Shown here: one piece after another, positions 278-38,660 of the stretch | Layout: each line of letters opens with the position of its first letter | Position numbering within the stretch: position 1 is the first letter of the stretch | Source: a virus | Reading direction: 5' to 3' (one strand) | Length of the DNA stretch: 39,334 bases | IMG/VR virus record: IMGVR_UViG_3300047463_000289 | Location: 1-39,334 of that record | The notes under the pieces: generated by a model | Told to the model about the DNA's origin: nothing | Database searches by the model: none | Seen by the model: the letters and a program-made list of their open reading frames with translations, nothing else | Translations under genes and position numbers: made by a program

Positions 278-439
278 ATGAAACGAGACTTAACTAAACT
301 AGCACTAGTGCTTAGCATACTGCTAATGCTACTAGTATCAATAGCGATTAAACAATACGTCGAAGCCACTAAACACTTAGCTCGCGTTCATAGCATTCAA
401 GAAACAGTCGAAAGCCAATTCGAAGGCGGTGCCCAATGA
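278..439 (+). CDS. Small single-TM membrane protein (53 aa)
   Basis: The ATG at 278 follows an AGGAG ribosome site at 266-270. The protein begins MKRDLTKLA and then has one hydrophobic segment of about 18 residues (roughly 9-26, rich in L, I, V), followed by a short polar tail. This predicts a one-pass inner-membrane peptide with a basic N-terminus on the inside. Its TGA (437-439) overlaps the next ATG (436-438), so the two genes are translationally coupled. It is the first gene of the rightward early operon. No family is recognised; a small antiholin-like or superinfection-type protein would be possible, but nothing shows it. Confidence 0.7.
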   Translation: MKRDLTKLALVLSILLMLLVSIAIKQYVEATKHLARVHSIQETVESQFEGGAQ

Positions 440-651
440 TACGCGAAGTTGAAGGGTTAAAGTATCGTGGACTAGATGTCACTGCCACGGTCGAATTCTT
501 ATCACCGTTTGATGATACATATATCATCGATGCGGTATACACTGAGACGGGCATTCCGCTTGAGGAATTAGAGTGTGAATACCTTCGCAGTGTAAACAGA
601 ACTAGGTTAAAAGCTATGGGCAGTGAGTTATTAGAGGGGGGTGTTCTATGA
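436..651 (+). CDS. Hypothetical early protein (71 aa)
   Basis: The start overlaps the stop of the upstream gene (ATGA), and its own stop overlaps the next ATG at 648. The sequence is acidic, alternating beta-like stretches (TATVEFLSPF, YIIDAVY) with a short C-terminal helix. There is no signal peptide, TM segment or catalytic motif. I do not recognise the family. Position in a run of tiny coupled genes suggests an early function that modifies the host, but this is only context. Confidence 0.65.
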   Translation: MIREVEGLKYRGLDVTATVEFLSPFDDTYIIDAVYTETGIPLEELECEYLRSVNRTRLKAMGSELLEGGVL

Positions 652-920
652 AGCACGATATAACAAACGTCTATCGGCAATATCCGGCTATGTTTCAATG
701 GTTCACAAACGCATACGGGCACGACGACGCGACTGCCGAATTCGGAGCTGCATATATTTACGAGTGTTTAGCCACGCCTAGCAGTGATAATGCTATGTGG
801 CAGGTACTCGAAGCAGTCGCAGGCGGAGACTTTCAAGTTGACCGAGAATTGCTTATTGATGCGTCACATGCTATCATTGAAACAACTAAACTAAACACGA
901 AAGGAAAAAAACATGAGTAA
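648..920 (+). CDS. Hypothetical early protein (90 aa)
   Basis: The start lies in a GGGGGGTGTTCTATG context that supplies a ribosome site, and it overlaps the previous stop by 4 nt. The product is acidic and probably all-helical, rich in aromatic residues (YRQYPAMFQWFTNAYG near the N-terminus), with no cysteines beyond one and no membrane segment. The C-terminal lysine run (KGKKHE) is encoded by AAGGAAAAAAACATGAG, which also serves as ribosome site for the DUF932-like gene at 913. Family unknown. Confidence 0.65.
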   Translation: MKHDITNVYRQYPAMFQWFTNAYGHDDATAEFGAAYIYECLATPSSDNAMWQVLEAVAGGDFQVDRELLIDASHAIIETTKLNTKGKKHE

Positions 921-1629
921 CCCATTCGAAGCAATTGCTCCGAGCGTCAATGTTAGCTCGAAGTATGCCTTCATTAGTACCCGTCAATTCATCGAAGACA
1001 TGGCGACTTTAGGCTGGAATACATCATCGACTAAGAGCCGTTCACGCACCGGCTTAGGAAAACATATAATGCGTTTCAGGCATGAAAACTACAAGTGTCC
1101 TAGCGGAGACTTTGTAGAGATTGTTGCTCTAAACGCGCACGACGGCTCTTCATCGTTTGTACTGCAATTCGGTATCTTCCGTTTAGTCTGCTCTAACGGG
1201 CTCGTTATCGGTAAAGTGTTAGTCGAGCCTGTACGCATTCGGCACGTCGGATACACTGCGGACAAAGTAACAAACGCAGTCAATACCCTATTAGCTCAAC
1301 TTGAGAAAGTACATGCGGCGATTGCTAAACTACAAACGACTACATTAACCGACGAGCAGTACGAAAACTTCAAACTAGCTGCGACTGTACTGCGCGGTCT
1401 TAACCCTGTGACGACTGACATCGAGCAATTCAATACCGCGCGTCGTGAAGCAGACAAGGGATACACTGCGTGGGCAGTACTAAACCGCGTTCAAGAGTCT
1501 CTCGTTAATGGTTTTGGCTATGTTAACGAAAAAAACGAGATTCGTAGAGCGCGTGCGATTAAAGGGGTTAAGTCTCAACTTGACCTAAACACGCAGCTAT
1601 TCGACGCAGTGCTGCAGATTGCCGCCTAA
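913..1629 (+). CDS. DUF932-like phage/plasmid protein (238 aa)
   Basis: The protein reads as the DUF932 (phage/plasmid-like protein) family. It has an N-terminal region with STRQFIEDMATLGW, then a beta-rich core (MRFRHENY, FVEIVALNAHDGSSSF) and the signature segment LVCSNGLVIGK around residues 90-102, followed by a helical C-terminal half. In known members the biochemical role is unsettled; they often sit in plasmid or phage early regions near recombination or anti-restriction genes. It starts at an ATG preceded by AAAGGAAAAAAAC and overlaps the upstream gene by 8 nt. A stable hairpin follows its stop codon. Family assignment is from memory of the motif, so function remains unknown. Confidence 0.75.
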   Translation: MSNPFEAIAPSVNVSSKYAFISTRQFIEDMATLGWNTSSTKSRSRTGLGKHIMRFRHENYKCPSGDFVEIVALNAHDGSSSFVLQFGIFRLVCSNGLVIGKVLVEPVRIRHVGYTADKVTNAVNTLLAQLEKVHAAIAKLQTTTLTDEQYENFKLAATVLRGLNPVTTDIEQFNTARREADKGYTAWAVLNRVQESLVNGFGYVNEKNEIRRARAIKGVKSQLDLNTQLFDAVLQIAA

Positions 1630-1638
1630 CGTCAACAA

Positions 1639-1660
1639 GGGGATAGTTTCGGCTATCCCC
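1639..1660 (+). other. Stable intergenic hairpin flanked by TCAACAA direct repeats
   Basis: GGGGATAG (1639-1646), loop TTTCGG, CTATCCCC (1653-1660) form a perfect 8-bp stem ten bases after the DUF932-like stop. The 7-mer TCAACAA lies immediately on both sides (1632-1638 and 1661-1667). There is no T-tract, so it is not a normal intrinsic terminator. It could set differential mRNA decay or act as an RNase processing site within the early operon. Confidence 0.7.
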
Positions 1661-1677
1661 TCAACAAAGAGGTATAT

Positions 1678-1938
1678 ATGGATAACGGAAATTTATTAAC
1701 TAAACAGAAACTCTTAAACGAATTAATTGAATTAGATAAGTTGAAGAATAAGTACACGCGTTTAGTTTCATTAAACGGTGCCTTCGGAGTTACCGAATTA
1801 GACGGCGAGATAGAGTGGAATACAGACCGTAAACTCTTATCTCAGTATGTCGCATTGAAACACAAGGCGTTACTTATTAAGTTGAAGGCAGTAGACCAAA
1901 GAGTTAAACACTTAAACAAAGAACTGAAGAAAGGATAA
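1678..1938 (+). CDS. Small charged helical protein, coiled coil (86 aa)
   Basis: The ATG at 1678 has AGAGG five bases upstream. The protein is highly charged, with leucine- and lysine-rich helices (KQKLLNELIELDKLKNKY at 9-26 and ALKHKALLIKLKAVDQR near 61-77) separated by a short beta-like segment. Heptad spacing suggests a coiled-coil dimer. No enzyme motif is present and the family is not recognised. It lies between the hairpin at 1639 and the MGYTHYW gene. Confidence 0.65.
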   Translation: MDNGNLLTKQKLLNELIELDKLKNKYTRLVSLNGAFGVTELDGEIEWNTDRKLLSQYVALKHKALLIKLKAVDQRVKHLNKELKKG

Positions 1939-1941
1939 CAT

Positions 1942-2442
1942 ATGGGATACACGCATTATTGGTCCTTTAAGAAACCTAAACGTGGGAAAATGCGCGAGGC
2001 AGAAAAAAAGTATGCTGCAGCTATCAAAGATTGCGCTACTTTAATCCGTTCGTATTATATTGCAAACGGAGAGTTATCAGGATATTCGGCTCATACTAAA
2101 CCTGGTAAATACGACGGCATTCTTTTCAATGGTAAAGGCGACTTAGCGCATGAAGACTTTAGCCTTCGAGCGACTTTCAAAGAGGCGTCGACCGCCTGTC
2201 ACTCAGACTGTTATAACTTTAATTTCTGCAAGACTGCTAGAAAACCATATGATGAAGTGGTTGTAGCATGTTTACTAATTCTCAAACGGCATTTAGGTGA
2301 CTTAATAGAGATTAGCAGTGACGGCTATCTCGACGACTGGTACGACGGGCGCGAATTAGCACGCCGTTATTTTAAGGACAAGACTTTACAAGTACCCGCC
2401 AGCATTGGAGTAAATAACTATGCAGTTATTAACAAGAAATAG
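1942..2442 (+). CDS. Conserved phage protein beginning MGYTHYW (166 aa)
   Basis: Proteins that start MGYTHYW and contain a central FNGKGDLAHEDF-type block and a C-terminal LGDLIEISSDGYLDDWYDGREL segment are widely seen in phages and are of unknown function. This one fits that pattern over its whole length. Several conserved aromatic and acidic residues suggest a binding or enzymatic pocket, but no known active site is visible. AAGGATAACAT precedes the ATG. It overlaps the GP88-like gene by 23 nt, which implies coupled translation. Confidence 0.75.
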   Translation: MGYTHYWSFKKPKRGKMREAEKKYAAAIKDCATLIRSYYIANGELSGYSAHTKPGKYDGILFNGKGDLAHEDFSLRATFKEASTACHSDCYNFNFCKTARKPYDEVVVACLLILKRHLGDLIEISSDGYLDDWYDGRELARRYFKDKTLQVPASIGVNNYAVINKK

Positions 2443-3073
2443 CAAGATAAGAAAGTCGGAAAAACGCACGTTCAACTTCGGCATACCTGCGTATCAGTCA
2501 ACTACTGGACTAAAAACATGCCCTAACGCAGGGGCATGCGCTAAAGGTTGTTACGCGCTTGCAGGCGCATACCGTTTTTCGAACGTGGCGCAGGCATTTG
2601 AGCGTCGACTGGCAGTCACGCAGTCAAACGAATTCATTGACCTAATGTTAAAAGAGATTGACGCTAACCGCGCAGAGCGCATTCGCATTCACGATAGCGG
2701 AGATTTCTACTCTGAAGAGTACCTTCAAAGATGGTTGAAAATAATGCGCGCACGGCCACACGTTGAATTCTATGCTTATACTAAGATGATAACCATGTTC
2801 AAGTTTCATGCTCCGTACTTGCCGAAAAACTTCACGGTTATCTACTCCTTTGGCGGTACTCAAGACCGGCTAATCGATGTGAAGAGAGACCGGCATTCAC
2901 TGGTCTTTGAAACTCATGAAGACCTAATCCGTGCCGGCTATGCCGATGCATCTAATCAAGATGATATTGCACTCGAAGATAACCCGCGCATTGGACTAGT
3001 CTATCACGGCACAAAGAATATAGAGAATACCAATTGGTCGAAAGTACCAGAACTTAAAAGAAAGGCAGGATAA
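2420..3073 (+). CDS. GP88-like protein with Cys cluster (217 aa)
   Basis: The N-terminal half matches the GP88 family (named for mycobacteriophage gene 88). A short basic leader is followed by FNFGIPAYQST, then the cysteine cluster TCPNAGACAKGCYA with C34, C40 and C44, then RIHDSGDFYSEEYLQRWL (about 91-108) and a FYAYTKM block. The three cysteines could hold a metal or iron-sulfur cluster, but the function of the family is not established. The ribosome site GGAG (2408-2411) lies nine bases before ATG 2420, inside the end of the preceding gene. It is clearly not a shadow frame, since residues typical of the family are conserved throughout. Confidence 0.78.
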   Translation: MQLLTRNSKIRKSEKRTFNFGIPAYQSTTGLKTCPNAGACAKGCYALAGAYRFSNVAQAFERRLAVTQSNEFIDLMLKEIDANRAERIRIHDSGDFYSEEYLQRWLKIMRARPHVEFYAYTKMITMFKFHAPYLPKNFTVIYSFGGTQDRLIDVKRDRHSLVFETHEDLIRAGYADASNQDDIALEDNPRIGLVYHGTKNIENTNWSKVPELKRKAG

Positions 3074-3074
3074 C

Positions 3075-3251
3075 ATGAAAGATATTGAAATACCCTGCGC
3101 ATGGATGATGTTTACGTTTGAAACGAAAACTTATAAGGCACGCCTTGAACTAGACGATAACGGAATACCGTTTGTTAATGTTCATGAGTGCTCTAACGCA
3201 GGTGTACGGGAATACGCGCACAAACTTTTCGAAGAGTTAGGACTAATCTAA
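3075..3251 (+). CDS. Hypothetical protein (58 aa)
   Basis: A short frame beginning MKDIEIPCAWMMFTFETK just after the GP88-like stop, with AAAGGCAGGATAAC upstream supplying a ribosome site. It fills the otherwise empty 195 nt before the gene at 3269. Composition is ordinary, with a beta-like N-terminal half and a helical C-terminus (EYAHKLFEELGLI). No family recognised. Confidence 0.6.
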   Translation: MKDIEIPCAWMMFTFETKTYKARLELDDNGIPFVNVHECSNAGVREYAHKLFEELGLI

Positions 3252-3268
3252 ACAAAGAAAGGAAACAT

Positions 3269-3490
3269 ATGAGACTACATATAACCGAAATTAAAATTGG
3301 GGATAAGATTAAAATTGCTTATCCCAGTGAAGGGTTCAAATTCGTCTACTATGGTGAAGTCACGTCAATCTCTAAGCACACTATAGAACTGAAAACTTTT
3401 GACGGATTTATTGCACTGCCTGCGGAAACCTGCCGTGTGTTTACGGATGAACCGGCACCGGTATACAGGTTAACCGGAGACAAAACATGA
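3269..3490 (+). CDS. Small beta-barrel-like protein (73 aa)
   Basis: AAGGAAACAT precedes the ATG. The sequence MRLHITEIKIGDKIKIAY, then GEVTSISKHTIELKTFDG, alternates hydrophobic and charged residues with the G-D-K-I pattern typical of SH3-like or KOW-type barrels. Such folds bind nucleic acid or protein, but no specific partner can be named. The TGA overlaps the next ATG at 3487. Confidence 0.62.
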   Translation: MRLHITEIKIGDKIKIAYPSEGFKFVYYGEVTSISKHTIELKTFDGFIALPAETCRVFTDEPAPVYRLTGDKT

Positions 3491-3795
3491 AAAAACTTTT
3501 ATTAGGTTTACTGTTAATTAGTTCGACCGTAAAAGCAGAGATAGGGCAGGACAAGTACGTGCACTTTGGCACAGTCTATGCGCTGCAAACGGCAAGTTAC
3601 GGGTTAACGCGAGCAGCACTAAAACTCGACCAGAAAAATGCACTTATTTTTTCGACGTTCTTCACCTCTATGGTATGGTTTACCAAAGAGATGTTGGATG
3701 CACAGAAAACTCAACGTCTAGACTTGGGTGACATTGGAGCTAATGCATTAGGGCAGGCGGCTTCAATTGGCACAGTTCTTGTCTTTGACTTTTAA
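3487..3795 (+). CDS. Secreted or membrane protein, YfiM/DUF2279-like (102 aa)
   Basis: A signal peptide is obvious: MKKLLLGLLLISSTVKA, cleaved after the A at 17. The rest reads DKYVHFGTVYALQTASYG, a hydrophobic segment near 50-66 (ALIFSTFFTSMVWFTKEM), then DLGDIGANALGQAASIGTVL. The D-K-x-x-H-F start and the D-x-x-A-N-x-x-G end resemble YfiM/DUF2279-type small envelope proteins; that likeness is suggestive only. It would act in the periplasm or inner membrane. The ribosome site GGAG is seven bases upstream. Confidence 0.6.
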   Translation: MKKLLLGLLLISSTVKAEIGQDKYVHFGTVYALQTASYGLTRAALKLDQKNALIFSTFFTSMVWFTKEMLDAQKTQRLDLGDIGANALGQAASIGTVLVFDF

Positions 3796-3813
3796 CTATA
3801 AAAGGAGTATACT

Positions 3814-3945
3814 ATGATAGTGACTATTGTAAACGGGCAAAAACGGTATAAGTTTGAACTGGGACCTGGCGCTTACATTGAATCGAGTAATGTGTCCTTG
3901 GTGTTACGGTTTTTATACGATGCATGGGAGAATGACTATGAATAA
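3814..3945 (+). CDS. Hypothetical small protein (43 aa)
   Basis: A strong AAAGGAG (3800-3806) sits seven bases before ATG 3814. The frame starts MIVTIVNGQKRYKFELGPG and ends at TAA 3943-3945, overlapping the next ATG at 3938. The excellent ribosome site and the coupling support it as a gene despite its length. It looks like a small beta-hairpin protein. Family unknown. Confidence 0.6.
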   Translation: MIVTIVNGQKRYKFELGPGAYIESSNVSLVLRFLYDAWENDYE

Positions 3946-4120
3946 CTGTCCAATTCTAGGTTGTAACATTCTATTCGCAGACAAAGAAGATGCCGAACTA
4001 CATTCGGCTAACTCTTGGCATTGCATAGCATGTGGCTATAGTGATGACCGCGAATTAACAAACGAAAACCTCGCTGAACTATGTCCAATGTGTAGCGAGC
4101 AAACCATGGAGGAATTGTGA
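3938..4120 (+). CDS. Small zinc-ribbon protein (60 aa)
   Basis: The best start is ATG 3938, with GGAG seven to ten bases upstream; an in-frame upstream ATG at 3854 lies inside the previous gene and has no ribosome site. The product contains CPILGC near the start, CIACGY in the middle and CPMC near the end, giving paired cysteines suited to zinc binding. Such ribbons bind nucleic acid or proteins, for example RNA polymerase. The stop overlaps the GTG start of the next gene (GTGA). Confidence 0.6.
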   Translation: MNNCPILGCNILFADKEDAELHSANSWHCIACGYSDDRELTNENLAELCPMCSEQTMEEL

Positions 4121-4338
4121 AGGATACAGCACTATCAATTATAGCGCTAATTCTGCTCATATACAACTATCTTATTACGCGCAGTAACCAGAAACTTAAG
4201 ACTCAAATAAAGGAGAAAGAAGATGAAGCACTATCAGACAAACTCAAAGCAATTCAGCAAGAACGTGACCGCGCTCGTGACCGCATGCGCTCTTTACTTG
4301 AGCACTATCGCGGTGACGGTCCAAGCGGAGACGCCTAA
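4117..4338 (+). CDS. N-terminal TM, coiled-coil protein, possible i-spanin (73 aa)
   Basis: GTG start at 4117, overlapping the previous TGA, with GGAGG at 4109-4113 just upstream. Residues 5-20 (ALSIIALILLIYNYLI) form one TM segment; residues 22-66 form a charged coiled coil. This N-in, single-TM plus coiled-coil layout, with a second gene nested out of frame in its 3' half (4223), resembles Rz-type inner-membrane spanins. It is shorter than usual Rz proteins (about 150 aa), and the main lysis genes are elsewhere, so the spanin reading is tentative. Confidence 0.5.
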   Translation: MKDTALSIIALILLIYNYLITRSNQKLKTQIKEKEDEALSDKLKAIQQERDRARDRMRSLLEHYRGDGPSGDA

Positions 4339-4537
4339 ACCTAAATGCGATACGGTATTGGCAGCCTGTTTAGAATACAACGAGACTCTGGAAAAGGAGA
4401 GTAAGATTCTCAAAGATGTTATCAAGCGTCAAGATGAAAAACTTCGTGAAGCTGATTCATCTAAAGGATTGCCGTGGTATTTCTATGTACTCGCAGGCGT
4501 CACCGGAGCATTCGTATTTCAGGGGTTTACCAAATGA
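4223..4537 (+). CDS. Exported protein with C-terminal TM, overlaps upstream gene (104 aa)
   Basis: AAAGGAGAAAGAAG precedes ATG 4223, so initiation inside the upstream frame is well supported. The N-terminus has a signal-like stretch (about 15-35) ending in VQA. A VTAC within it resembles a lipobox, but its hydrophobic run before the Cys is very short. A soluble segment with C42 and C49 and a coiled coil follows, then a C-terminal TM near 82-100 (LPWYFYVLAGVTGAFVF). A protein anchored at both ends could bridge the envelope as a spanin-like factor. No family is firmly recognised. The next gene starts in its stop (ATGA). Confidence 0.58.
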   Translation: MKHYQTNSKQFSKNVTALVTACALYLSTIAVTVQAETPKPKCDTVLAACLEYNETLEKESKILKDVIKRQDEKLREADSSKGLPWYFYVLAGVTGAFVFQGFTK

Positions 4538-4722
4538 AGTACGACGCAAAGTGTATCGCGTGTAATACGACGTTTGAATACGAGCGCTCTATCAAAGAGC
4601 CAATAACACCAACGCCACCTTGTCCCAAGTGCAAGTCAGAGAATACTGAAAAGGTATTCACCCTAAACGCAGGGGGATTTGTGCTAAAGGGGCAAGGCTG
4701 GTATAAAAAAGGAGGATACTAA
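4534..4722 (+). CDS. FmdB-type zinc-ribbon protein (62 aa)
   Basis: ATG 4534 overlaps the TGA at 4535-4537. Cysteines form CIAC (residues 7-10) and CPKC (30-33), followed by a GGFVLKGQGWYKKGGY tail. This is the hallmark of the FmdB/CxxC_CxxC zinc-ribbon family, common in bacteria and in phages, where its role is unclear (putative regulator). The tail with GWYKxGY is complete, so the gene is intact. An in-frame upstream start at 4474 is inside the previous gene and lacks support. Confidence 0.72.
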   Translation: MKYDAKCIACNTTFEYERSIKEPITPTPPCPKCKSENTEKVFTLNAGGFVLKGQGWYKKGGY

Positions 4723-4961
4723 TGGTGACCGCAACATGGAAAGACCTGCGCGCACTGGTCGCATATGGCGACAAGGAAAAGTGTGCGGATGATGCACCTG
4801 TGGTAGTGAGTTTAACTGATGCTCCTGATATGACAATTCGATGCGCCTTTTCTGATGAGGAAAAGAGGCATTGCGTGATTGTTATTACGGATAAAGTGTT
4901 GGGTAGACGGGTTCAACTAATTAAATACATGGATTTACACACACGATTGGAGGAAAAATGA
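4722..4961 (+). CDS. Hypothetical protein (79 aa)
   Basis: The start shares bases with the preceding TAA (TAATG), with AAAGGAGG upstream. The protein begins MVTATWKDLRALVAYGDKEK and includes APVVVSLTDAP and HCVIVITDKVLGRR. This alternating pattern suggests a small alpha/beta fold. No signal peptide, metal site or known motif. The ATGA overlap continues into the next gene at 4958. Confidence 0.6.
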   Translation: MVTATWKDLRALVAYGDKEKCADDAPVVVSLTDAPDMTIRCAFSDEEKRHCVIVITDKVLGRRVQLIKYMDLHTRLEEK

Positions 4962-5167
4962 GTGACGGCATGTACGAAGTCTTTGCAAAGCGCAACAAGA
5001 AAAAGCTAACCGTTAAAAAACGTAGGATAAATAAGCACGTGGTTATACATGTGTATAGTGATGGTAGGGTACTCATTCGAAACTCGAAACAAGGAGCAAC
5101 GATTGCCTTAAAACTAATGACGCTAGAAAACATCGTTAAGAAGGTGCAGGAATGCTCCACCAATTAA
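4958..5167 (+). CDS. Small basic protein (69 aa)
   Basis: TTGGAGGAAAA precedes the ATG, which overlaps the upstream stop. The N-terminal third is strongly basic (KRNKKKLTVKKRRINKH), followed by VVIHVYSDGRVLIRNSKQG, a beta-hairpin-like segment, and a C-terminal helix. A nucleic-acid-binding role is plausible from charge alone. Not a recognised family. It overlaps the 5152 gene by 16 nt. Confidence 0.6.
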   Translation: MSDGMYEVFAKRNKKKLTVKKRRINKHVVIHVYSDGRVLIRNSKQGATIALKLMTLENIVKKVQECSTN

Positions 5168-5439
5168 TCGCTACTATCTGCGGTATTACTTTGCACACTC
5201 AAGTGAATGCTTGTCGCATCACTTTGCAGCAAGCCACCGTTGAGTATAATGCCAAACTAAACCGCAAGGCAGAGCGCATTAAAGTAGAGTTAGAAGAGCA
5301 AGTTAGAAATCAATATACTGAAACCTTGTTTGTCATAGGTAAGGTCGCATATGACAGACAAATAAACATAACGCATGGGCGGTTCAACGTATTGCTACGT
5401 TCGGACCGCACCATGTGCACAATTCGATGGGAGTTTTAA
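5152..5439 (+). CDS. Hypothetical, possibly exported protein (95 aa)
   Basis: AAGAAGG seven bases before the ATG acts as ribosome site. The first 21 residues (MLHQLIATICGITLHTQVNA) are mildly hydrophobic and could be a weak signal peptide ending before C21; the VNAC there is a poor lipobox. The rest is charged, with a helix at about 26-52 and a C-terminal beta stretch. The TAA is shared with the ATG of the 21-residue peptide at 5439. Unknown family. Confidence 0.55.
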   Translation: MLHQLIATICGITLHTQVNACRITLQQATVEYNAKLNRKAERIKVELEEQVRNQYTETLFVIGKVAYDRQINITHGRFNVLLRSDRTMCTIRWEF

Positions 5440-5504
5440 TGCTTAGTATTATTGTTGTACTAGTTATTATCATGATTTATAACATAGTCGGAGGTGTAGA
5501 ATGA
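5439..5504 (+). CDS. 21-residue hydrophobic membrane peptide
   Basis: This very short frame starts in TAATG, with GGGAG just upstream, and ends in ATGA with the protease gene. Residues 2-15 (LSIIVVLVIIMIYN) are almost wholly aliphatic, so the peptide is little more than one membrane helix. Translational coupling on both sides and the fit into an otherwise empty 60-nt gap argue that it is expressed. Possible roles include a small membrane regulator or a leader for the protease gene. Function unknown. Confidence 0.5.
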   Translation: MLSIIVVLVIIMIYNIVGGVE

Positions 5505-6157
5505 GATTCATTTTCTACTTTCACATTGCAGTACTGGCACTAGGTTTAGACGTGATACAAATTGACGTGGGTAATGCGATTGAGTTTACCGGTGACTTTA
5601 ACATGCCGGCTAACTGGTTTGTTCACCCATCAAAACACGGCACGGCAATGGCTTTATCACTAAAGGACCAGGCGCAAAAACTACAACTTGCCCCTATCTA
5701 TGCAGAGCAAGTGCTGTGGATTCCAGGGCGTGGATTTGAAATGACAATTATTAAAGCATTGCAGTTAGCCCACTTAAGAGGAACGCGCGTTCTATCTTTA
5801 AGTTACGGAGGGGGGATTCCAATTCCGTCAGAGTTTCTATTACTAAAACAGTTTGCAGAAAGCGACACGGTAATTGTTGCAGCCGCAGGAAATAATGGTG
5901 GAGGACGTATTTACTACCCAGCAAACTACCCAAACCCTTGTATGATAAGTGTTGGTACGTTAGTTAATGGCGTTAAAGCGTCATATTCAAATGACGCCGA
6001 CACGTGGATTGAGTATGTGCCTGGGGATATGCCAGGTACCTCGGCAAGTACCGCGAGAATGGGTGCTATTGCGTTGGCTTATCGCGTGACTTATCCGAAG
6101 CATAGTTGCAGGGAGATTGCGAAGTTAATCAAACAAAACTTTGGAGGTAGGAAATGA
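5501..6157 (+). CDS. Subtilisin-like serine protease, peptidase S8 (218 aa)
   Basis: All active-site elements of a subtilase are visible: D22 in VIQIDVG, H46 in KHGTAMA, the oxyanion N131 in AAAGNNGG, and S181 in PGTSASTA. SLSYGG at 99-104 matches the substrate-binding strand. At 218 residues it is smaller than mature subtilisin (about 275) and has no propeptide. Residues 1-16 (MRFIFYFHIAVLALGL) are hydrophobic, but they lead straight into the Asp motif, so they may be the first core strand rather than a cleaved signal. GGAGGTGTAG supplies the ribosome site. It could cleave a host protein or a phage structural precursor; no substrate can be inferred from context. Confidence 0.85.
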   Translation: MRFIFYFHIAVLALGLDVIQIDVGNAIEFTGDFNMPANWFVHPSKHGTAMALSLKDQAQKLQLAPIYAEQVLWIPGRGFEMTIIKALQLAHLRGTRVLSLSYGGGIPIPSEFLLLKQFAESDTVIVAAAGNNGGGRIYYPANYPNPCMISVGTLVNGVKASYSNDADTWIEYVPGDMPGTSASTARMGAIALAYRVTYPKHSCREIAKLIKQNFGGRK

Positions 6158-6531
6158 AAAAGTATAAAGATTTTTGGATTGGAAACTACAAACAAGTCAG
6201 AGTACAGACAAAAAAAATTAGCCGAGATGTACGCGAATCGTTAATTGATTTTCGATGTGAATTGGACGTATTTATTTTTCATTGGGATAACGCCCATGAC
6301 GACTTTAGTAGACACCTTACAATTGAATACCGCATACAGTGGATTCCAGGTTGGAAATTTGACGACGAAAGGTTTAGAATTTTAACAGAGTACGCATACA
6401 GCGAGGCATATTATAATAACGAATTAAAAATTTTATGTCGTCGACTTAATAAATTACAAAAACGATTAGGACGAATAGGGCGTCGTTTTATGAAACGCGC
6501 TCACTTAAAACGGTCATCTAATTCTGCATGA
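6154..6531 (+). CDS. Hypothetical basic protein, last gene of early operon (125 aa)
   Basis: The ATGA overlap with the protease stop and the GGAGG ribosome site show coupled translation, so it may work with the protease, perhaps as partner or inhibitor; that is inference. The protein is rich in W, Y, R and K, with IEYRIQWIPGWKFDDERF in the middle and a strongly basic helical C-terminus (CRRLNKLQKRLGRIGRR). Its last 31 nt overlap the convergent DUF5664 gene. No terminator is seen at this junction. Family unknown. Confidence 0.62.
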   Translation: MKKYKDFWIGNYKQVRVQTKKISRDVRESLIDFRCELDVFIFHWDNAHDDFSRHLTIEYRIQWIPGWKFDDERFRILTEYAYSEAYYNNELKILCRRLNKLQKRLGRIGRRFMKRAHLKRSSNSA

Positions 6532-6806: not shown

Positions 6807-6958
6807 GGTGTCCTCGTTATTAAAAGGTAAACTAAAGTTGTATAGACTATTGCAATAACAAGTAAACTGTTGCTATTACATTGCGTGAATGACAAGCAAA
6901 CATGTAAACTTGTTAGTAATCCGGTGACCGGCAATAAATAAAATAGAGCACGTATCAC
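6803..6958 (-). CDS. Small two-TM membrane protein (51 aa, GTG start)
   Basis: This frame fills the gap between the DUF6496-like and DUF5664 genes. GTG at 6958 overlaps the upstream TGA (GTGA) and its own TGA overlaps the ATG at 6806. Two hydrophobic stretches are seen, ALFYLLPVTGLLTSLHVCL and SLLVIAIVYTTLVYLL, so it would be a hairpin in the inner membrane. The ribosome site is weak (AAACGAAAAAA), so translation would rely on coupling. No family recognised. Confidence 0.5.
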   Translation of the reverse strand: MIRALFYLLPVTGLLTSLHVCLSFTQCNSNSLLVIAIVYTTLVYLLITRTP

Positions 6959-7152
6959 TTTTTTCGTTTCATCGATAAGCGTTTTGCTGCAGATGACTTC
7001 TTGGGTACCGGCTCACCAGCTTCTCGTGCTTCCGAGAGAGCAATTGCAATAGCTTGCTTACGGGACTTTACTTTTGGTCCTTTTTTAGAACCACTATGCA
7101 ACTTCCCTTCTTTGTACTCATGCATTACTTTTTCAACTTTTCCTTTTCGCAT
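6955..7152 (-). CDS. DUF6496-like small basic protein (65 aa)
   Basis: The core KVEKVMHEYKEGKLHSGSKK followed by a VKSRKQAIAIALSEAR helix is the pattern of DUF6496, found in phages and bacteria with unknown function. ATG 7152 is chosen because AAAAGGAGAAAG lies eight bases upstream; the in-frame ATG at 7182 would overlap the previous gene by 50 nt. The protein is very lysine-rich, ending in KRLSMKRKK, which suggests nucleic-acid binding. Confidence 0.7.
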   Translation of the reverse strand: MRKGKVEKVMHEYKEGKLHSGSKKGPKVKSRKQAIAIALSEAREAGEPVPKKSSAAKRLSMKRKK

Positions 7153-7414
7153 TTTTCTTTCTCCTTTTCTTTTTGTACTCATGTTCTAGTATACGTTCAT
7201 CAGCTAACTTAGAAAGTCTTTTATCTTCTTCAATTTCTTCTTTAACTTGAAATGCATATTGCTCACATAAATAGTCTCCTACTTCATGACCACGTACAAT
7301 ATAACCACAACCTTGCAAAAAACTTACAAAACTATCGGTGGCCTCCATCCATGTAGCATCATCATTAAGTTTCATTTGTATATACCCTTCGCCATGTTTC
7401 TTTTTAAGTAGCAT
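7133..7414 (-). CDS. Hypothetical charged protein (93 aa)
   Basis: ATG 7414 is preferred to upstream in-frame starts because GGAGGAATAAC is directly upstream, within the end of terS. The protein opens MLLKKKHGEGYIQMKL, has a middle part with SFVSFLQGCGYIVRGHEVG, and closes with a long Lys/Arg/Glu helix (EHEYKKKRRKKNAKRKS). Position just after the small terminase might suggest a packaging accessory role, but no family is recognised. Confidence 0.6.
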   Translation of the reverse strand: MLLKKKHGEGYIQMKLNDDATWMEATDSFVSFLQGCGYIVRGHEVGDYLCEQYAFQVKEEIEEDKRLSKLADERILEHEYKKKRRKKNAKRKS

Positions 7415-7987: not shown

Positions 7988-8429
7988 GAATCAACTCCTC
8001 CACTATTTCTATTTGGTGCTGTAACTTTGGCGCGTGCTTCTTACTCGCGTATTGCAGCGCGGTTTGTAACCGCTTCAAAAACTCTACACACTTTTGCTTT
8101 TGTGTTGCGTTCGATAGCAAAGGTTCTTCTGTCTCAACGGCAACACTAACTGTTTTGGTTTGGAGGGGTTGCTTTAACATGGCTGTCGCTTGTCTGGAAA
8201 TTTCTTCGTCCCTTTCAATTACCGTGTTGTTGCTCTTTGCGGTCAGGAATATAAATTCGGCAGATGGAAAGTGCGCCCGTAGTTCTGCTTCAGAATTTAA
8301 GGTTAGCGGAAAACACCCGTCTGGCATGTCGGTAACGGATTGCACGGGCACGGGCCGGTTGAAACTATCCATCGGCACGCGGAATAGTGACTGCCCTAGT
8401 TTCTGTATATACACCTTATTCCCTTGCAT
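7974..8429 (-). CDS. Hypothetical protein (151 aa)
   Basis: ATG 8429 is chosen: AGAGG lies six bases upstream, whereas the TTG at 8435 falls within that spacer. The N-terminal half is beta-like (NKVYIQKLGQSLFRVPMDSF), and includes FPLTLNSEAELRAHFPSAEF; the C-terminal 50 residues form a lysine/glutamine-rich helix pair (QKQKCVEFLKRLQTALQY, HQIEIVEELIREIF). No catalytic motif seen. Member of the terS operon. Confidence 0.6.
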   Translation of the reverse strand: MQGNKVYIQKLGQSLFRVPMDSFNRPVPVQSVTDMPDGCFPLTLNSEAELRAHFPSAEFIFLTAKSNNTVIERDEEISRQATAMLKQPLQTKTVSVAVETEEPLLSNATQKQKCVEFLKRLQTALQYASKKHAPKLQHQIEIVEELIREIF

Positions 8430-8655
8430 TTTCAACCTCTTGCAACCACTGCTGCTTCTTACCGTGCAGCCGTTTATACCGGTCGACTAGTCGCGGGTAG
8501 CGCATAATGTACATGCGAGCTTCAGCATACGCTTCCTCAACTTCGTCCGGTTCAATCCCCTCCAGGGGCAAGCCTAACTCAAAGCGCAAAACATCCTCGA
8601 CAGCTTGCGCTAAAATCATCAGCGATAATCTTGTTAACCTGCCCCTACTATCCAT
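8416..8655 (-). CDS. First gene of leftward early operon, leaderless (79 aa)
   Basis: The start is placed at ATG 8655 (MDSRGRLTRLSLMIL). The in-frame ATG at 8673 lies upstream of the promoter -10 and cannot be on the transcript. With TATACT at 8667-8662 the mRNA should begin at or beside the A of this ATG, so translation would be leaderless. The protein is acidic and helical (FELGLPLEGIEPDEVEEAYA), ending in a basic helix. The family is unknown; it could be a small regulator. Confidence 0.6.
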   Translation of the reverse strand: MDSRGRLTRLSLMILAQAVEDVLRFELGLPLEGIEPDEVEEAYAEARMYIMRYPRLVDRYKRLHGKKQQWLQEVENARE

Positions 8656-8690
8656 AATACTAGTATAATGCATGTCCGTAAAAAAGTCAA
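8656..8690 (-). promoter_or_regulatory. Leftward sigma70-type promoter for the terS operon
   Basis: On the minus strand, TTGACT (8690-8685), a 17-bp spacer, then TATACT (8667-8662), followed by AGTATT. The -10 and the bases after it form the palindrome ATACTAGTAT (8657-8666). The expected start of transcription is 8655, the first base of the ATG. A near-consensus TTGACA (8719-8714) upstream with weak -10 TATTTC may be a second, weaker promoter. Confidence 0.8.
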
Positions 8691-8733: not shown

Positions 8734-8808
8734 GTAAGTATTACTAGCGCAGCAAGTCTTTTAAGGACTTGCTTACCTATGTACGTATACACTACTTGCC
8801 GGCAGCTC
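8734..8808 (-). ncRNA. Candidate structured RNA A
   Basis: Read on the minus strand, the predicted transcript starts GAGCTGCCGG at 8808, continues with TAGTGTATACGTA, and then forms a hairpin. An outer GTAAG/CTTAC stem (8776-8772 with 8738-8734) encloses an inner stem (GCAAGTC with GACTTGC) capped by the loop CTTAAAA (plus-strand span 8752-8772). A close relative lies at 38579-38660 on the plus strand: 29 of the first 32 bases match, and the hairpin stems differ but still pair. No frame or tRNA feature is present and no T-tract terminator is seen, so the 3' end is unknown. Known families were not matched. Confidence 0.6.
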
Positions 8809-8843
8809 TATACTAGTTTACACGATAATTTACCGTTTGTCAA
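8809..8843 (-). promoter_or_regulatory. Promoter of RNA A
   Basis: Minus strand TTGACA (8843-8838), 17-bp spacer, TAAACT (8820-8815), then AGTATA (8814-8809). The predicted start is the G at 8808, exactly the first base of the block shared with RNA B. The 12 bases at 8809-8820 match the TATACTAGTATA palindrome at 11 positions. Confidence 0.8.
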
Positions 8844-26798: not shown

Positions 26799-27527
26799 TT
26801 AATCACCGGGTTCAAATCCTGGAACGTCTAATGAATCGCTCATCCCGTCAAAGCGGGCTTCCAGTAAAGACTTAATGCGTGGGTTTTCCACGTCTGAAAG
26901 ATTAGCAAGATCAGCCTGAATATCTTGTTTAATAAGCGCTAAAGCCTCTTGTTTTTTCATGGGCGCGCGCTCATCATTTTCGCGGTCTAATGCCATGGAG
27001 ATTACATACTCAATAAAGGATTCCTGATACTTATAAGGAATCACTGGGTAGTTAGCAAAGTTATTAGTGGGCGCAGGGGTTATCTTTCCATCGATTTTAA
27101 GAGCGATGACTTTGGTGCTTGGGGGCCAAAGGCGAATCTTGTTATCTTCTATAGGTGCCCAATACATGGGTGTATCTTCGGCTGATCCGTCATCATTAGC
27201 GGTATCAAAGCGCCGAATTTGATTTAAGTCAACGCGTTTAAGAACAACGCCGTCAACTTCAGCACGAATAGTTTCCACATCAGTCGCAGCCATGTAGTAA
27301 CCAATAGTAGCGCTAGATAATGTGTATTCGGCTGTTGCTAAGGAGGTAGTTAAAGTAAGACCCGTTCTGCGTAAAAATCCCCAATCGTGCATTTTACAAA
27401 AGCGATACTCGGCAAGGGCAAGGGTTTGCTCAACATAGGTTTGAAACCCTAAGCTATCATTACCAATATAGTTTTGAACGCGAGAGACAATCTCTGCGTA
27501 TGAAAATCCTGAAGTTGTGTTAGGCAT
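26799..27527 (-). CDS. Head-tail adaptor protein (242 aa)
   Basis: The N-terminus SYAEIVSRVQNYIGNDSLGF and W-rich middle (KMHDWGFLRRTGLTLTTSLA) fit phage adaptor or gp11/TTPA-like proteins that form a ring below the portal. A beta domain with IRLWPPSTKVIALKIDG follows, then a helical C-terminus (ESFIEYVISMALDRENDE). Position between capsid and nozzle genes supports it. It overlaps the preceding gene by 8 nt. Confidence 0.72.
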   Translation of the reverse strand: MPNTTSGFSYAEIVSRVQNYIGNDSLGFQTYVEQTLALAEYRFCKMHDWGFLRRTGLTLTTSLATAEYTLSSATIGYYMAATDVETIRAEVDGVVLKRVDLNQIRRFDTANDDGSAEDTPMYWAPIEDNKIRLWPPSTKVIALKIDGKITPAPTNNFANYPVIPYKYQESFIEYVISMALDRENDERAPMKKQEALALIKQDIQADLANLSDVENPRIKSLLEARFDGMSDSLDVPGFEPGD

Positions 27528-28014
27528 TTGCTAACCTCTTTGCAATTTCTATTTTACCAAAAAAGCTTGCGCGGTCGTAATCTGACTCGCCAAGCCCTGC
27601 ACAACCGAATGCTTTTTTAACTTTTTCAGCCGATGCTATTTTTCGGTTGATTAACATAAGTCCTAAAGAACGCCAGCCAAGGACGGCTAATTTCGTATAC
27701 TCCATATTAAATATATCATACTCAGGAATAAAGTCAAGACAAATCGACGTAATAAATATGTCCATTTGGCCGCTTTCTAAAGCGTCTAAGTATTTGGCAT
27801 GGCCTTCATTTACAAGATTGCGCTCGTGTTGCGCAACTCCTACAGAGGCTTTTCTAGGGCGTTTAAGATATAAAGCACTAAATTTAAGTCCATTTTCACG
27901 TACTTGCTTACGTGCAGTATCAATGTAAAGTTCTGGGTGAACCTTTTTTAACTTATCTTGTAAACTCATTAAGGTCATTTTAGGCTGTTCCCAAGGTATA
28001 AGTGTAAAAGCCAT
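27520..28014 (-). CDS. Hypothetical structural-cluster protein (164 aa)
   Basis: An alpha/beta protein with an N-terminal tryptophan (MAFTLIPWEQPKMTLMSLQD), basic middle (KFSALYLKRPRKASVGVAQH) and a central hydrophobic part (SICLDFIPEYDIFNMEYTKL, AVLGWRSLGLMLINRKIA). Not a recognised head gene family. Its position between the capsid and the adaptor gene suggests a head completion or assembly role. The first Met at 28014 could be replaced by internal ones (residues 13 and 16), but no strong ribosome site decides. Confidence 0.55.
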   Translation of the reverse strand: MAFTLIPWEQPKMTLMSLQDKLKKVHPELYIDTARKQVRENGLKFSALYLKRPRKASVGVAQHERNLVNEGHAKYLDALESGQMDIFITSICLDFIPEYDIFNMEYTKLAVLGWRSLGLMLINRKIASAEKVKKAFGCAGLGESDYDRASFFGKIEIAKRLANA

Positions 28015-28027
28015 TGACAGTAAGTTA

Positions 28028-28043
28028 GGGGTGAGATTACCCC
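28028..28043 (-). other. Intergenic hairpin after the capsid gene
   Basis: In the 42-nt gap downstream of the capsid stop, GGGGT and ACCCC pair around a 6-base loop. No T-tract follows on the minus strand, so a full intrinsic terminator is unlikely. It may protect the capsid mRNA 3' end or reduce read-through into tail genes. Confidence 0.35.
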
Positions 28044-28056
28044 ACCCCCTTCTATA

Positions 28057-29013
28057 TTATGTTAATGAAGATGCACTATTAACAGCAATAACACGCTTAG
28101 AACCTGTTTGCAGGTACTTAGCAGCAAAGCCATTAATTTTGTATCCAACTGTTGCAAACTGATCCAAAGGATCAACTGCTCCAGCAGAACCGTGTTTTTT
28201 CATAATCATTTTCATTGCGTCGCCATTGAGTTCTACAACTCCAAAAGCTTCTTCACCAATGACAAAAGATTGAACAACATTTGATGGTCCACCGTGAACA
28301 GCAGGTAATGAATTAAGCATTTTGTCTGAAACAAGGAATCTCATTCCATACATTCTGCCAATTTCACCGTTTAGCACTGGTCGATTATCAGTATATTTTT
28401 GAATATCGAGAAAACTACCAGCCTGCGTGTCTGACAATAAATCATATTCTGCATGTGCATGTAATACACAAACATAATCACCAGATTCGTGTGGTCCGAT
28501 ATACTCGGCTTTTTGACGAATCATAGCTTCGATTAGTTCTTTATGATTTAGAACGTCCGATACGCCTGGAGTGGCACCAATTGCAGCAAAGTTAGCTCTT
28601 CCGTTTACGTTTTGGTTTGCGCAATTTTGAGAAATCTCAGAAATAATAAGTTCTTCGATTGTCTTAGAAGCGGCAATACCGAAACGCTCAGAAAGATTTT
28701 CCATTACTGGATCAATTGCGGTATCTGACAAAAGATCAGAAACTTTAGCAAATTGACCATATTGTTCAATATCTGCTTGCACAGTTGCTGTTGTGAAAGC
28801 AATCTCATTAGGAACTGTACCTTCAGTTAGTGGAACTACTGAACTATTAATTGCACTATATCTGAGCCATTTAACTCGTTTTCCATTTCCTTTTGGAAGT
28901 CTTTGTTTTTTTCCAAGAGGTTGAAGGACTAGACGAGGTTCAAGGACAGATAATAGCTTTTTTTCATAATACAAGTGCAGATTTGCTGCATTTGTGAGTG
29001 TTGTTGAAGCCAT
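28057..29013 (-). CDS. Major capsid protein, N4-gp56 family (318 aa)
   Basis: The start MASTTLTNAANLHLYYEKKL, the KKQRLPKGNGKRVKWLRYS segment near 35-53, and VPLTEGTVPNEIAFTTATVQ followed by DIEQYGQFAKVSD at 80-95 are the pattern of N4-gp56-type HK97-fold capsids. A later VCVLHAHAEYDLLSD block and GRMYGMRFLVSDKM strengthen the call. It builds the icosahedral head on the scaffold. Length fits the small end of the family (usual 300-400). No maturation protease gene is seen beside it. Confidence 0.85.
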   Translation of the reverse strand: MASTTLTNAANLHLYYEKKLLSVLEPRLVLQPLGKKQRLPKGNGKRVKWLRYSAINSSVVPLTEGTVPNEIAFTTATVQADIEQYGQFAKVSDLLSDTAIDPVMENLSERFGIAASKTIEELIISEISQNCANQNVNGRANFAAIGATPGVSDVLNHKELIEAMIRQKAEYIGPHESGDYVCVLHAHAEYDLLSDTQAGSFLDIQKYTDNRPVLNGEIGRMYGMRFLVSDKMLNSLPAVHGGPSNVVQSFVIGEEAFGVVELNGDAMKMIMKKHGSAGAVDPLDQFATVGYKINGFAAKYLQTGSKRVIAVNSASSLT

Positions 29014-29022
29014 TATTTACTC

Positions 29023-29826
29023 CTAATCGTCGCTCCGTCCAAGAGCCTTACGCATCTCATCAAGTGAGAGTTTATCAAAAGGCACTGAAGCATCTGTTTT
29101 AGATACTGCAGATTCGGACTGAGCACGTTGTTTTTCTGATCGCACAGAAAGACCGCCTTGCTGTGCGCGCTCAGCAGCTTGCTTGGTATAATAATCTAAA
29201 TCCATACCACGAGACATAAGATCTAATGCCCTTAAAGCTTTAACAGAACTTAATGCTTCTGGACGAATAATATCTTGCATCTCTATTGCTAACTGCTGCA
29301 TCATCGGCTCACGTCGAGCATAATCAGGATTTTCCTGTTTTTGCTTTCTGTAATATCCTTCAGCTTCCATTCGCGACTGTTCTCGCGATTGTTGCTGTAT
29401 TCGATTAGACACTGCATTCAAGGCCATTTTCACAGCCGTGCGCGGGTCTTCATCAAACTTGGAATCAAAGACAGCGATAGGGTCCTGTTCTTCCTCCATT
29501 TGAACCGTTTTTGGTTGCCGTTGAGTTGCTGCCTGTGCATATGCGATTCGTTCTCGTTCTGCTTGGCGGAACTGCTCCTCTACGGTTTCCTTCTCTTTTC
29601 GAGTAGAACCTAACTCAGATGCGAGCCTACCACGTTCTCTTTCGAGTTCCCGGTATGCTTGGATAATCTCCAATGGAGACTTTCCTACGAACTTCTGAGG
29701 TATAGAGTTCGCCTCTTCCACTGCTTCAGATTGGCCAAGAGTAGAGATCTCTTGGGTCTGTGGCTGTTCAACAGCCTGACTTTCTTGCGAGGTCGCTTGT
29801 GGCTGCGCGATTTTCTCGTCTGACAT
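29023..29826 (-). CDS. Scaffolding protein (267 aa)
   Basis: Highly charged and Gln/Glu-rich with a long coiled-coil middle (YRELERERGRLASELGSTRK to about residue 125) and a KLSLDEMRKALGRSDD C-terminus, typical of phage scaffold proteins whose C-terminal helix binds the capsid. It lies just upstream of the capsid gene with 9 nt between them. It would guide procapsid assembly and then leave. Function rests on composition and position. Confidence 0.75.
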   Translation of the reverse strand: MSDEKIAQPQATSQESQAVEQPQTQEISTLGQSEAVEEANSIPQKFVGKSPLEIIQAYRELERERGRLASELGSTRKEKETVEEQFRQAERERIAYAQAATQRQPKTVQMEEEQDPIAVFDSKFDEDPRTAVKMALNAVSNRIQQQSREQSRMEAEGYYRKQKQENPDYARREPMMQQLAIEMQDIIRPEALSSVKALRALDLMSRGMDLDYYTKQAAERAQQGGLSVRSEKQRAQSESAVSKTDASVPFDKLSLDEMRKALGRSDD

Positions 29827-29840
29827 GTTATCCTCCTAGT

Positions 29841-30182
29841 TTAGCCCTCTTCAGGGGACTGGGTTTTTTGCTCCTGCAACGCAAGACCTTCGGCAATTTT
29901 ATAATCGACAAAGTTCATTACGTTTTGGTAAGCTTTGACCGCCTCTTGAAGGCGGCGGAATTTGTCTAAATCTTGTTCGTATGTGAGTTTCTCTTTTAAG
30001 TCTGCACATGTTTCTTTAAGTAAAGTTTCAAGTAACATCCACCCACGAGCCTGTTTAAGCTGTGCAAGAGCTTGACCTTCATCAATAACTCGCTCTGCTT
30101 CAGCGTCAATAACTTCCTCTTTACCGGACATTTCGCCCGTTTCAGGGTTCCAAATCTTGATGTTTTCGTTTGCGTATAACAT
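29841..30182 (-). CDS. Hypothetical protein between portal and scaffold (113 aa)
   Basis: ATG 30182 shares a base with the portal stop. The N-terminus reads MLYANENIKIWNPETGEMSG, followed by acidic helices (AEAERVIDEGQALAQLKQAR, ETCADLKEKLTYEQDLDKFR). All-helical C-terminal part with conserved-looking aromatic sites. A head-assembly helper is probable from position, but no family is recognised. Confidence 0.58.
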   Translation of the reverse strand: MLYANENIKIWNPETGEMSGKEEVIDAEAERVIDEGQALAQLKQARGWMLLETLLKETCADLKEKLTYEQDLDKFRRLQEAVKAYQNVMNFVDYKIAEGLALQEQKTQSPEEG

Positions 30183-32056
30183 TATTTAAGCCCTAAAGCT
30201 GCCAATACGTCTTGACTTGGCTGCACATTTAAGTTAGCTTCTTGCGCATTCGGTTGTGGTGCGTTCATACCCTGCTGTGCATTGACAGCTTGCTGTGCTG
30301 CAAGCTGCTGCATTTGCATCATTTGACGCTCTTCAGGGCTATTGACAAAGCGTTTTACTTGGCGACCCAATAGTGGGCGTAATAGCGCCTCTAATATAAC
30401 GTCTGATTTAACCGTTCCGGGCTGACTTCCTTCGATTGCTTGAAGGATTTGGGACACGGTTTGTATCTTTTGAAACTGCCCCTCTGGGCCGCCGGTTTCC
30501 AACGTCGTCTCAACGAGGAAATCGAAGGCCCTGAAAAATGCATCAGGTGGTAACTCAACGAATGGGTTAGGCGTATTGGGATCTAATACCCGTACCCACT
30601 GGCTTTCAGTTACAAATTGCCTGTTAGTAAGTAGCATGATTTTAGCTACTGGTTTAAAAAACATTTCGGCAAGCATCCGTGCTTTAAGACTGATACGAGA
30701 GCTTGCAAAGCTTTGAATAAAATTAACGCCGGTTGCAGAACGTCCAAACTGTTTACCAAGGTTTGAAGCTACAGGTGCAGCATTTACCATGGCGGTAGCA
30801 TTCTGAATGTCGTTTTGTATAAACGCCATTTCCTCACGCGATCCAATCGAAGGGTCCATTGGCGGTAACGGTTTAATCGCATTAATATCGTTGGTCCAGA
30901 TTACGCCGTTAGGTCGTGAGAATAAACTTTTGGTATTGATCCCTGCAGCCCGGTCAGCAATCCACATGGGATTTACCGATAGATTAATGTTGTCAAGTCT
31001 AGCATTGCGAAGCGTATTGGCTTCTTTGATCAAAGACCGTACAGCCATTAGTTCTGGAACGCCATAGAATTCAGATTCGCGCATGTAGTTAGGACATGCG
31101 ACAAACGGTTTAAATTTATAATCATAGAAGTTAGGTTCGCACCTAAGAACTACGTCACCGTTTGCAATTACAATAATGTACTCTTCAAAGTTGCCGTCTT
31201 GATTGGGGTCAAAAAGACCCCAGTATTCCCAAACTTCTACGGTTCCTTCTTCTTTAACGCCATCTTCATTGTCGTTTAGCCGGTCAAAATCATCTTTATA
31301 AGCGTCCGAGTAGTATGGACGCGCCCACGCGTCTTCGCCCTTAACACTAATACTGACTTCAATTTCCTTTAGGTTTTTGTAGAGGGGGTTGGTTTTAAGC
31401 GCTGCCAAGGTCTTGTACGTGCGGTGGACGCAGCCCCTCATGGATGCGACGTCTCCTGGGCGCTTTACGGTCCAGTCTGGGAAGAAGTCGGCAATGGGCA
31501 CAATTTCGAGGTCTGGCCCATCAAATAGCACTTCAACGGCGGGCTGTTTAATGGACAACGGGATACCGGTTATAGGGTCCATTTGCATCACGCGACGCAT
31601 GGTTTCCATCTCTTTATATCTGTACGGTACCTTAGCGATGGCGGTTCCATCTAAAAGCATTGCTTTAATAAATGCGGCAGACTTTGACTGCAGTCCCATC
31701 TCTTCAAACTGATGCACGTGAAAGTCGGTAATGGCGTCTTCGTACATGGCGTCGTTTGCATCTTGCCCCTTAAACTGTACGGCGTTGCCACCCCTAAAAA
31801 AGATGTCAACTAGTTGCGGAGTTTGCGTTTCAATAATGGTAAAACCAAACGGCAATTTAAGATTAGCACGCTGTACAATGCTACGGTTAGCAGGCGACCA
31901 GTTTTCATACAACTCCCTAGATTTTACAGCAAGTTCAATGTGTGGGTCGCGGTACTCATCGCTGTTACGCATAAATGCGCGCACAATGCGAATTGCGTGC
32001 AACTCTTTTGATTGCTCTTTTTGCTGTAGCTCATCATGTTCAAAAGGATTTTTCAT
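30182..32056 (-). CDS. Portal protein (624 aa)
   Basis: The gene follows terL and precedes scaffold and capsid. Early residues (VKSRELYENWSPANRSIVQR, then ANLKLPFGFTIIETQTPQLV) and the ELMAVRSLIKEANTLRNARL and DNINLSVNPMWIADRAAGIN segments (about 337-376) are those of podovirus-type portals, which form the dodecameric ring at the head vertex. The C-terminal 60 residues are Gln-rich (MQMQQLAAQQAVNAQQG). Size is normal for the type. Confidence 0.82.
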   Translation of the reverse strand: MKNPFEHDELQQKEQSKELHAIRIVRAFMRNSDEYRDPHIELAVKSRELYENWSPANRSIVQRANLKLPFGFTIIETQTPQLVDIFFRGGNAVQFKGQDANDAMYEDAITDFHVHQFEEMGLQSKSAAFIKAMLLDGTAIAKVPYRYKEMETMRRVMQMDPITGIPLSIKQPAVEVLFDGPDLEIVPIADFFPDWTVKRPGDVASMRGCVHRTYKTLAALKTNPLYKNLKEIEVSISVKGEDAWARPYYSDAYKDDFDRLNDNEDGVKEEGTVEVWEYWGLFDPNQDGNFEEYIIVIANGDVVLRCEPNFYDYKFKPFVACPNYMRESEFYGVPELMAVRSLIKEANTLRNARLDNINLSVNPMWIADRAAGINTKSLFSRPNGVIWTNDINAIKPLPPMDPSIGSREEMAFIQNDIQNATAMVNAAPVASNLGKQFGRSATGVNFIQSFASSRISLKARMLAEMFFKPVAKIMLLTNRQFVTESQWVRVLDPNTPNPFVELPPDAFFRAFDFLVETTLETGGPEGQFQKIQTVSQILQAIEGSQPGTVKSDVILEALLRPLLGRQVKRFVNSPEERQMMQMQQLAAQQAVNAQQGMNAPQPNAQEANLNVQPSQDVLAALGLK

Positions 32057-32059
32057 GCA

Positions 32060-34386: not shown

Positions 34387-34387
34387 A

Positions 34388-38543: not shown

Positions 38544-38571
38544 TTGACTTTTTTAAAATTTCTGGTATACT
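38544..38571 (+). promoter_or_regulatory. Promoter of RNA B
   Basis: TTGACT (38544-38549), 16-bp spacer, TATACT (38566-38571), followed by AATACA. The predicted start is 38578 or 38579, the first base of the conserved GAGCTGCCGG block. It fires divergently from the late promoter, about 15 bp apart. Confidence 0.78.
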
Positions 38572-38578
38572 AATACAT

Positions 38579-38660
38579 GAGCTGCCGGGAAATAGTGTAT
38601 ACGTATATAGTGTATACGCTGGTAGCCCAGCTTTTAAGGCTGGGCGTACTACCGGTAGCC
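38579..38660 (+). ncRNA. Candidate structured RNA B
   Basis: The predicted transcript begins GAGCTGCCGG, then TAGTGTATACGTA; the 11-mer TAGTGTATACG appears twice (38593-38603, 38608-38618). A hairpin follows: outer GGTAG/CTACC (38621-38625 with 38649-38653), inner GCCCAGC/GCTGGGC with loop TTTTAAG (38632-38638). The 5' end GCTGCCGG (38581-38588) can also pair with CCGGTAGC (38652-38659). It shares 29 of 32 opening bases with RNA A. It lies antisense to any read-through from the DUF6321-like gene. No T-tract terminator is visible; the 3' end is unknown. The 70-aa frame crossing it on the minus strand is not convincing. Confidence 0.6.

Follow-up and report, generated by a model that had tools for sequence, protein, structure and literature searches.

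Two similar elements behind strong promoters

Why does a phage carry two copies of one short sequence, each directly behind a strong promoter? In the 39,334-nt sequence of an aquatic phage analysed here (the window), the copies are element A, read from 8808 to 8734 on the minus strand, and element B, read from 38579 to 38660 on the plus strand (Table 1). A preliminary description had taken them for two RNAs with covarying hairpins. Its starting point was borne out: an inverted-repeat search aligned 8777–8808 (minus) with 38579–38610 (plus) at 29 of 32 positions (91% over 32 nt), and locus A, used as a query against its own genome, matched itself and B only (E = 9.2e-8). Judged by this common sequence, which is conserved in related phages, A and B are homologous. 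The promoter-like sites each contain 10 of the 12 consensus bases and lie at the normal distance ahead of the leader. The placement of both loci directly behind good sigma70-type promoters, at two control regions, was also confirmed, and it holds in relatives. Each element proceeds from its strong sigma70-type promoter through a GC-rich stretch of 10–12 nt into an AT-rich, near-palindromic core, which lies at about +13 to +45 and is centred on TACGTA.

Table 1. Features of elements A and B and of their surroundings in the window
Feature	Position	Strand	Remarks
Promoter of element A, TTGACA-17-TAAACT	8815..8843	-	Same place in G002, G003, G007, G013, L064, L065
Element A head and core (GAGCTGCCGG..TAGTGTATACGTA..)	8777..8808	-	29/32 identical to B
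Hairpin of A, AGCAAGTC-CTTAAAA-GACTTGCT	8751..8773	-	p 0.027 against shuffles
Second promoter directly after A, for 79-aa gene with leaderless-type start	8662..8690	-	Conserved in relatives
79-aa gene heading leftward block	8416..8655	-	Three-helix model, no Pfam or PDB match
Promoter of element B, TTGACT-16-TATACT, TG-extended	38544..38571	+	Conserved in L003, G002, G005, G007, G013, G016, G020
Element B head and core	38579..38610	+	29/32 identical to A
Second TAGTGTATACG unit, 15 bp past the first	38608..38618	+	Pairs with the first as predicted stem P2
Hairpin P3 of B, arms GCCCAGC/GCTGGGC, loop TTTTAAG	38625..38645	+	p about 0.02 against shuffles
P3 extension of B, GGTAG/CTACC	38621–38625/38649–38653	+
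Predicted closing helix P1 of B, GCTGCCGG (38581–38588)/CCGGTAGC (38652–38659)	38581..38659	+	Not general in relatives

Genome layout

The related contig L003 bridges the junction between the end and the start of the window. The window is therefore circular or permuted and falls about 115 nt short of the full genome; the phage genome, at about 39.4 kb, is best regarded as circularly permuted. Element B points through this junction to a rightward early block (genes 436–6531, plus strand), and element A heads a leftward block (genes 8655–6501, minus strand) that includes the small terminase subunit. The two blocks converge, and gene positions give the same layout in G002, G007 and G013. B first runs antisense through a 103-aa gene (38987–38676) and its leader, and presumably leads on to the early genes 1.2 kb away; the rightward early genes might instead depend on an extended -10, TGCTATAAT, near 39310. 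The second promoter and the 79-aa gene lie within 150 nt after A, with the ATG about 6 nt past the -10. The 79-aa protein was considered as a trans factor and set aside, its three-helix model having no informative PDB match. The ATGs at window positions 8655 (minus) and 8903 (plus) each follow the -10 of a promoter by about 6–7 nt, which makes leaderless mRNAs likely here.

Transcription-primed replication origins might also take the form of two sites that are linked to promoters, carry short repeats and lie at divergent junctions. That role is highly improbable here, as the GC skew just tracks gene direction, with no separate switch, and no other origin feature was seen at the two sites.

Occurrence in related phages

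Relatives were collected by the head pattern (one near relative, L003), by the terminase (38 loci) and by the nuclease gene adjoining A (two loci), and two more-distant relatives were found by nuclease alignment; the independent lineages sampled number only about four or five. A search of an annotated phage collection with the A region gave no phage matches at the DNA level, and no terminase relative was found in bacterial genomes. Two further contigs, L147 and L151, were considered as wider viral carriers of the core and discarded as chance matches in unrelated sequence.

A strong promoter with a leader was found at the position of B in seven relatives and at that of A in six (Table 1). Place and strand are kept, together with the promoter, a shared core of 30–50 nt and often a hairpin; in L064 and L065, the most distant A loci, the promoter is retained and the core is lost. 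The 66-nt core and hairpin of B (38590–38656) differ from those of G002 by about one change, while the flanks have diverged. In the sequence examined, the palindrome TATACGTATA is confined to the two elements in G002, G007 and G013; in the window B alone carries it, A reading TATACGTACA there. The segment that follows the A hairpin is inverted between phages, being CGTAAGTAT in G002A (L004, about 5840–5850) and ATACTTACG in the window (8735–8755). The G002 contig (L054 1–160 and the end of L053) has element B at both ends, and small differences between these copies mean that they are not an exact terminal repeat.

The conserved leader might be thought to encode a leaderless micro-peptide, since an ATG 4–5 nt past the -10 opens about 29–40 codons (MSCREIVYTYIVYTLVAQLLRLGVLPVA) in B of the window, L003 and G002. 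Other genes of this phage have their ATG about 6 nt past the -10, and in the micro-peptide frame a pair of neighbouring changes between the two end copies of G002 is synonymous. Overall, however, there are six synonymous and eight non-synonymous changes, no better than in the best antisense frame; moreover, G005B and G007B run into an early stop, and at A the place of the ATG is taken by TAG. Coding of this kind is thus very unlikely.

Hairpins and folding

The preliminary description had inferred selection on an RNA fold common to A and B. The hairpins that it named exist: GCAAGTC/GACTTGC at A and GCCCAGC/GCTGGGC at B are each unusual against shuffled sequence (p about 0.02), and GGTAG/CTACC is present as well. 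The outer GTAAG/CTTAC helix of A, in contrast, is absent from the minimum-energy predicted structure, and the 75 nt of A fold no better than shuffled sequence (z about -0.95 to -1.1). The 82 nt of B reach z -5.6 against shuffles. The register differs, the hairpin of A beginning at +36 and that of B at +47, and the A loop, CTTAAAA, is the reverse complement of the B loop, TTTTAAG.

Among the relatives, most lineages show strong structure at B (z -4 to -5 over 110 nt). The window lineage, G005, G016 and G020 have a GC hairpin there whose arms vary freely (p 0.007 to 0.017), and that of G002B was reached by none of 300 shuffles. In G007B and G013B the best-scoring stem falls in the core, and a further GC hairpin, AGCAGGTC/GACCTGCT, can be read from the sequence. 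At A, a hairpin is clear only in the window and in G002, where the arms differ from those of the window; shuffle tests gave no significant hairpin at A in G003, G007, G013, L064 or L065. The aligned B elements yielded no consensus fold (covariation term +0.63), and a search of them for compensatory changes in a common fold found none, leaving only the presence of a hairpin as the retained property of B. A conserved three-way junction, P1-P2-P3, is predicted in B of the window and L003 and fails as a general feature.

With the A stem not significant in several phages and no common fold at B, the apparent covariation is a swap of one hairpin for another, mainly at B. A hairpin is favoured, chiefly at B, and one covarying RNA is not common to both elements. 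The conserved part is the 5' core rather than the hairpin, and several A homologues have lost the stem, an outcome that the preliminary description had itself named as refuting its proposal.

The absence of a known RNA family was confirmed for both elements: Rfam 15 covariance models gave no match at gathering threshold over the window, none with E of 5 or below at A and none overlapping B. No tRNAs were found in the window. A pair of small trans-acting RNAs with host or phage targets would be in keeping with the strong promoters that A and B each possess, with the lack of a sense gene directly after B and the further promoter at once after A, and with the structure of B. Yet no intrinsic terminator was found right after A or B, the fold and the 3' part are conserved neither between A and B nor among lineages, and an RNA from B would run antisense into a gene. 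Such a pair is therefore quite unlikely. Of the roles first suggested, a regulatory RNA pair, host-targeting sRNAs or replication primers, neither sRNA nor primer gained positive evidence, and a cis role at two convergent early transcripts fits better.

Concerted change of the two elements

Both loci are available in four genomes, the window, G002, G007 and G013. In all four, the best match of A other than itself is B, with exactly two copies per genome. The A–B score is 27 in the window, against at most 15.5 elsewhere in that genome, and 25 in G002, against 20; in G007 and G013 it is 32 and 30.5, against about 17–22, the latter partly from overlaps with A or B. Within a lineage A–B scores are 22–36, whereas A–A scores between the window/G002 and G007/G013 lineages are 12–19. 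Between these two best-sampled lineages the likeness of A to A is thus little above background, and within each lineage A and B are alike. The core reads TAGTGTATACGTATATAG in the window lineage and TATAGC-N8-GCTATACGTATAGCTATCGWTAGC in G007 and G013, and is close to CTAGTAWACACTAKCGTA in G003A and G020B. In G013, 19 of the left 20 nt of B agree with the reverse complement of the corresponding stretch of A, against 15 of 20 in direct comparison. As read from sequence, this inverted unit would suit a double-stranded DNA site or the inversion of a loop in a hairpin.

A and B co-diversify within each lineage, which points to one trans-acting partner. Gene conversion could also give cores that are shared by A and B.

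Operators and stoperators of phage repressors are short, partly palindromic sites that are repeated at early promoters and co-evolve with their binder. A and B likewise are copies of a short, partly palindromic site that is common to the promoters and diverges in concert by lineage. Unlike such operators, the present site is placed downstream, between about +13 and +45, and has only two copies; no repressor gene was found among 20 early proteins.

A paired early control site

Tentatively, with a probability of about 0.45, a single cis-acting control site is present in two copies, A and B, each at the 5' end of one of the two convergent early transcripts. The site is best read as an operator-like core followed by a 3' hairpin, and one control factor probably acts on the two early gene blocks at once. 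This factor, encoded by phage or host, would act on the core at A and B soon after the promoter fires, so that the two early blocks would be switched, or modified, in unison. The hairpin, which B has in every lineage examined and A in some phages, may then stabilise, pause or load the transcript. The core could be recognised in double-stranded DNA, as an operator or roadblock is, or in the nascent RNA. Its partial palindromes, and the inner segment that is inverted in G007 and G013, favour DNA; the strong folding of B favours RNA.

The main rival, owing to its likeness to putL and putR of phage HK022, is a nascent-RNA processivity element of the put or nut kind, a leader that folds on leaving the polymerase and, on both early transcripts, renders it less prone to pause or terminate. 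PutL and putR are alike, about 70 nt long and rich in stem-loops, and lie at two early transcripts, one of them directly after its promoter (PMC9378689). A and B likewise are two similar hairpin-bearing leaders, about 70–80 nt long, that follow directly on the promoters of two early transcripts, and B folds strongly in most lineages. They differ in having no conserved two-stem fold: the B elements are without a common fold, A folds weakly, and the hairpin is missing in several A loci. Put acts on host polymerase, whereas the core of A and B changes in concert by lineage. Local alignment of the A and B elements with HK022 27000–36000 gave scores no higher than those of shuffled sequence for 14 of 15 elements, the exception being G002A (19.5 against a shuffled maximum of 19.0), and terminators that would need override are not in excess in the early blocks. 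Neither the sequence comparison nor the search for two conserved stem-loops supported placing A and B with put, whose antitermination is protein-free and works through the beta' zinc-binding domain.

The nutL and nutR sites of lambdoid phages consist of boxA and boxB, act with the N protein, and occur as two copies on two early transcripts, with lineage-specific sequence and a hairpin. A and B share the two early-transcript copies, the lineage-specific sequence in both and the hairpin, but no conserved boxA was seen, no N-like gene was identified, and the A hairpin is lost in several phages. A search of Pfam and PHROGs for an N-like protein gave no match; small basic proteins are encoded at 6955–7182 and 38676–38987. 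On balance, a processivity element of the put or nut kind is unlikely. It is decidedly doubtful that, in these uncultured phages, the paired, lineage-specific leaders modify host RNA polymerase through the nascent hairpin and core at both ends of the early region, and so form a class of antitermination or processivity element with no sequence kinship to put and nut.

Against the paired control site, no helix-turn-helix or other recognisable regulator scored above cut-off among 20 early proteins, and the lack of surplus terminators in the early blocks counts against it as well. Two co-evolving promoter-leader sites offer a precise, testable handle on the factor that would coordinate early genes in uncultured phages that have no recognisable regulator. 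If nascent RNA is what is read, they would extend a very short list of RNA-guided antitermination systems.

A structured RNA beside element B

On the strand opposite to B, at about 39122–38990 (minus; core 39006–39063), lies a further RNA, here called L, which is better supported as a structured RNA than A or B. It consists of GGCGUCACCUGCC, a variable stem, AAGUGGUGAGC and the hairpin CCCGG-AGGCUA-CCGGG, which across phages is CCCGG-NGGCUA-CCGGG. It has no match in Rfam and is present in eight related phage contigs (the window, L003, L053, L008, L010, L016, L019 and L023), among which two base pairs show compensatory changes. These contigs include that of G005, in which no counterpart of the downstream 103-aa gene was found.

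The core pattern of L also matches unrelated contigs, although an estimated 14 or so of 16 matches in bacterial genomes are expected by chance. Five matches, one of them viral, share a hairpin that was not part of the query, with the loop AAGCAGAG and changing stems. This combination of L-like core and hairpin loop with covarying stems occurs in L156 (347), L163, L167, L173 and L176, which are unrelated viral and MAG contigs; L157 has an L-like core without the loop. None of the matches in unrelated contigs reached the Rfam gathering threshold. A covariance model built from the phage copies of L found two unrelated viral contigs (E = 0.005 and 0.01). Kinship between phage L and these RNAs is no more than suggested; they may form a broader RNA family that has yet to be catalogued, in which the loop could pair with CUGC as a pseudoknot. 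In L163, L173 and L176 the L-like RNA precedes an ATPase-like gene. Within the promoter of L (window 39105–39140, minus), all eight contigs have another -10-like hexamer about 12 nt past the first -10, and its position resembles that of a sigma-dependent pause site.
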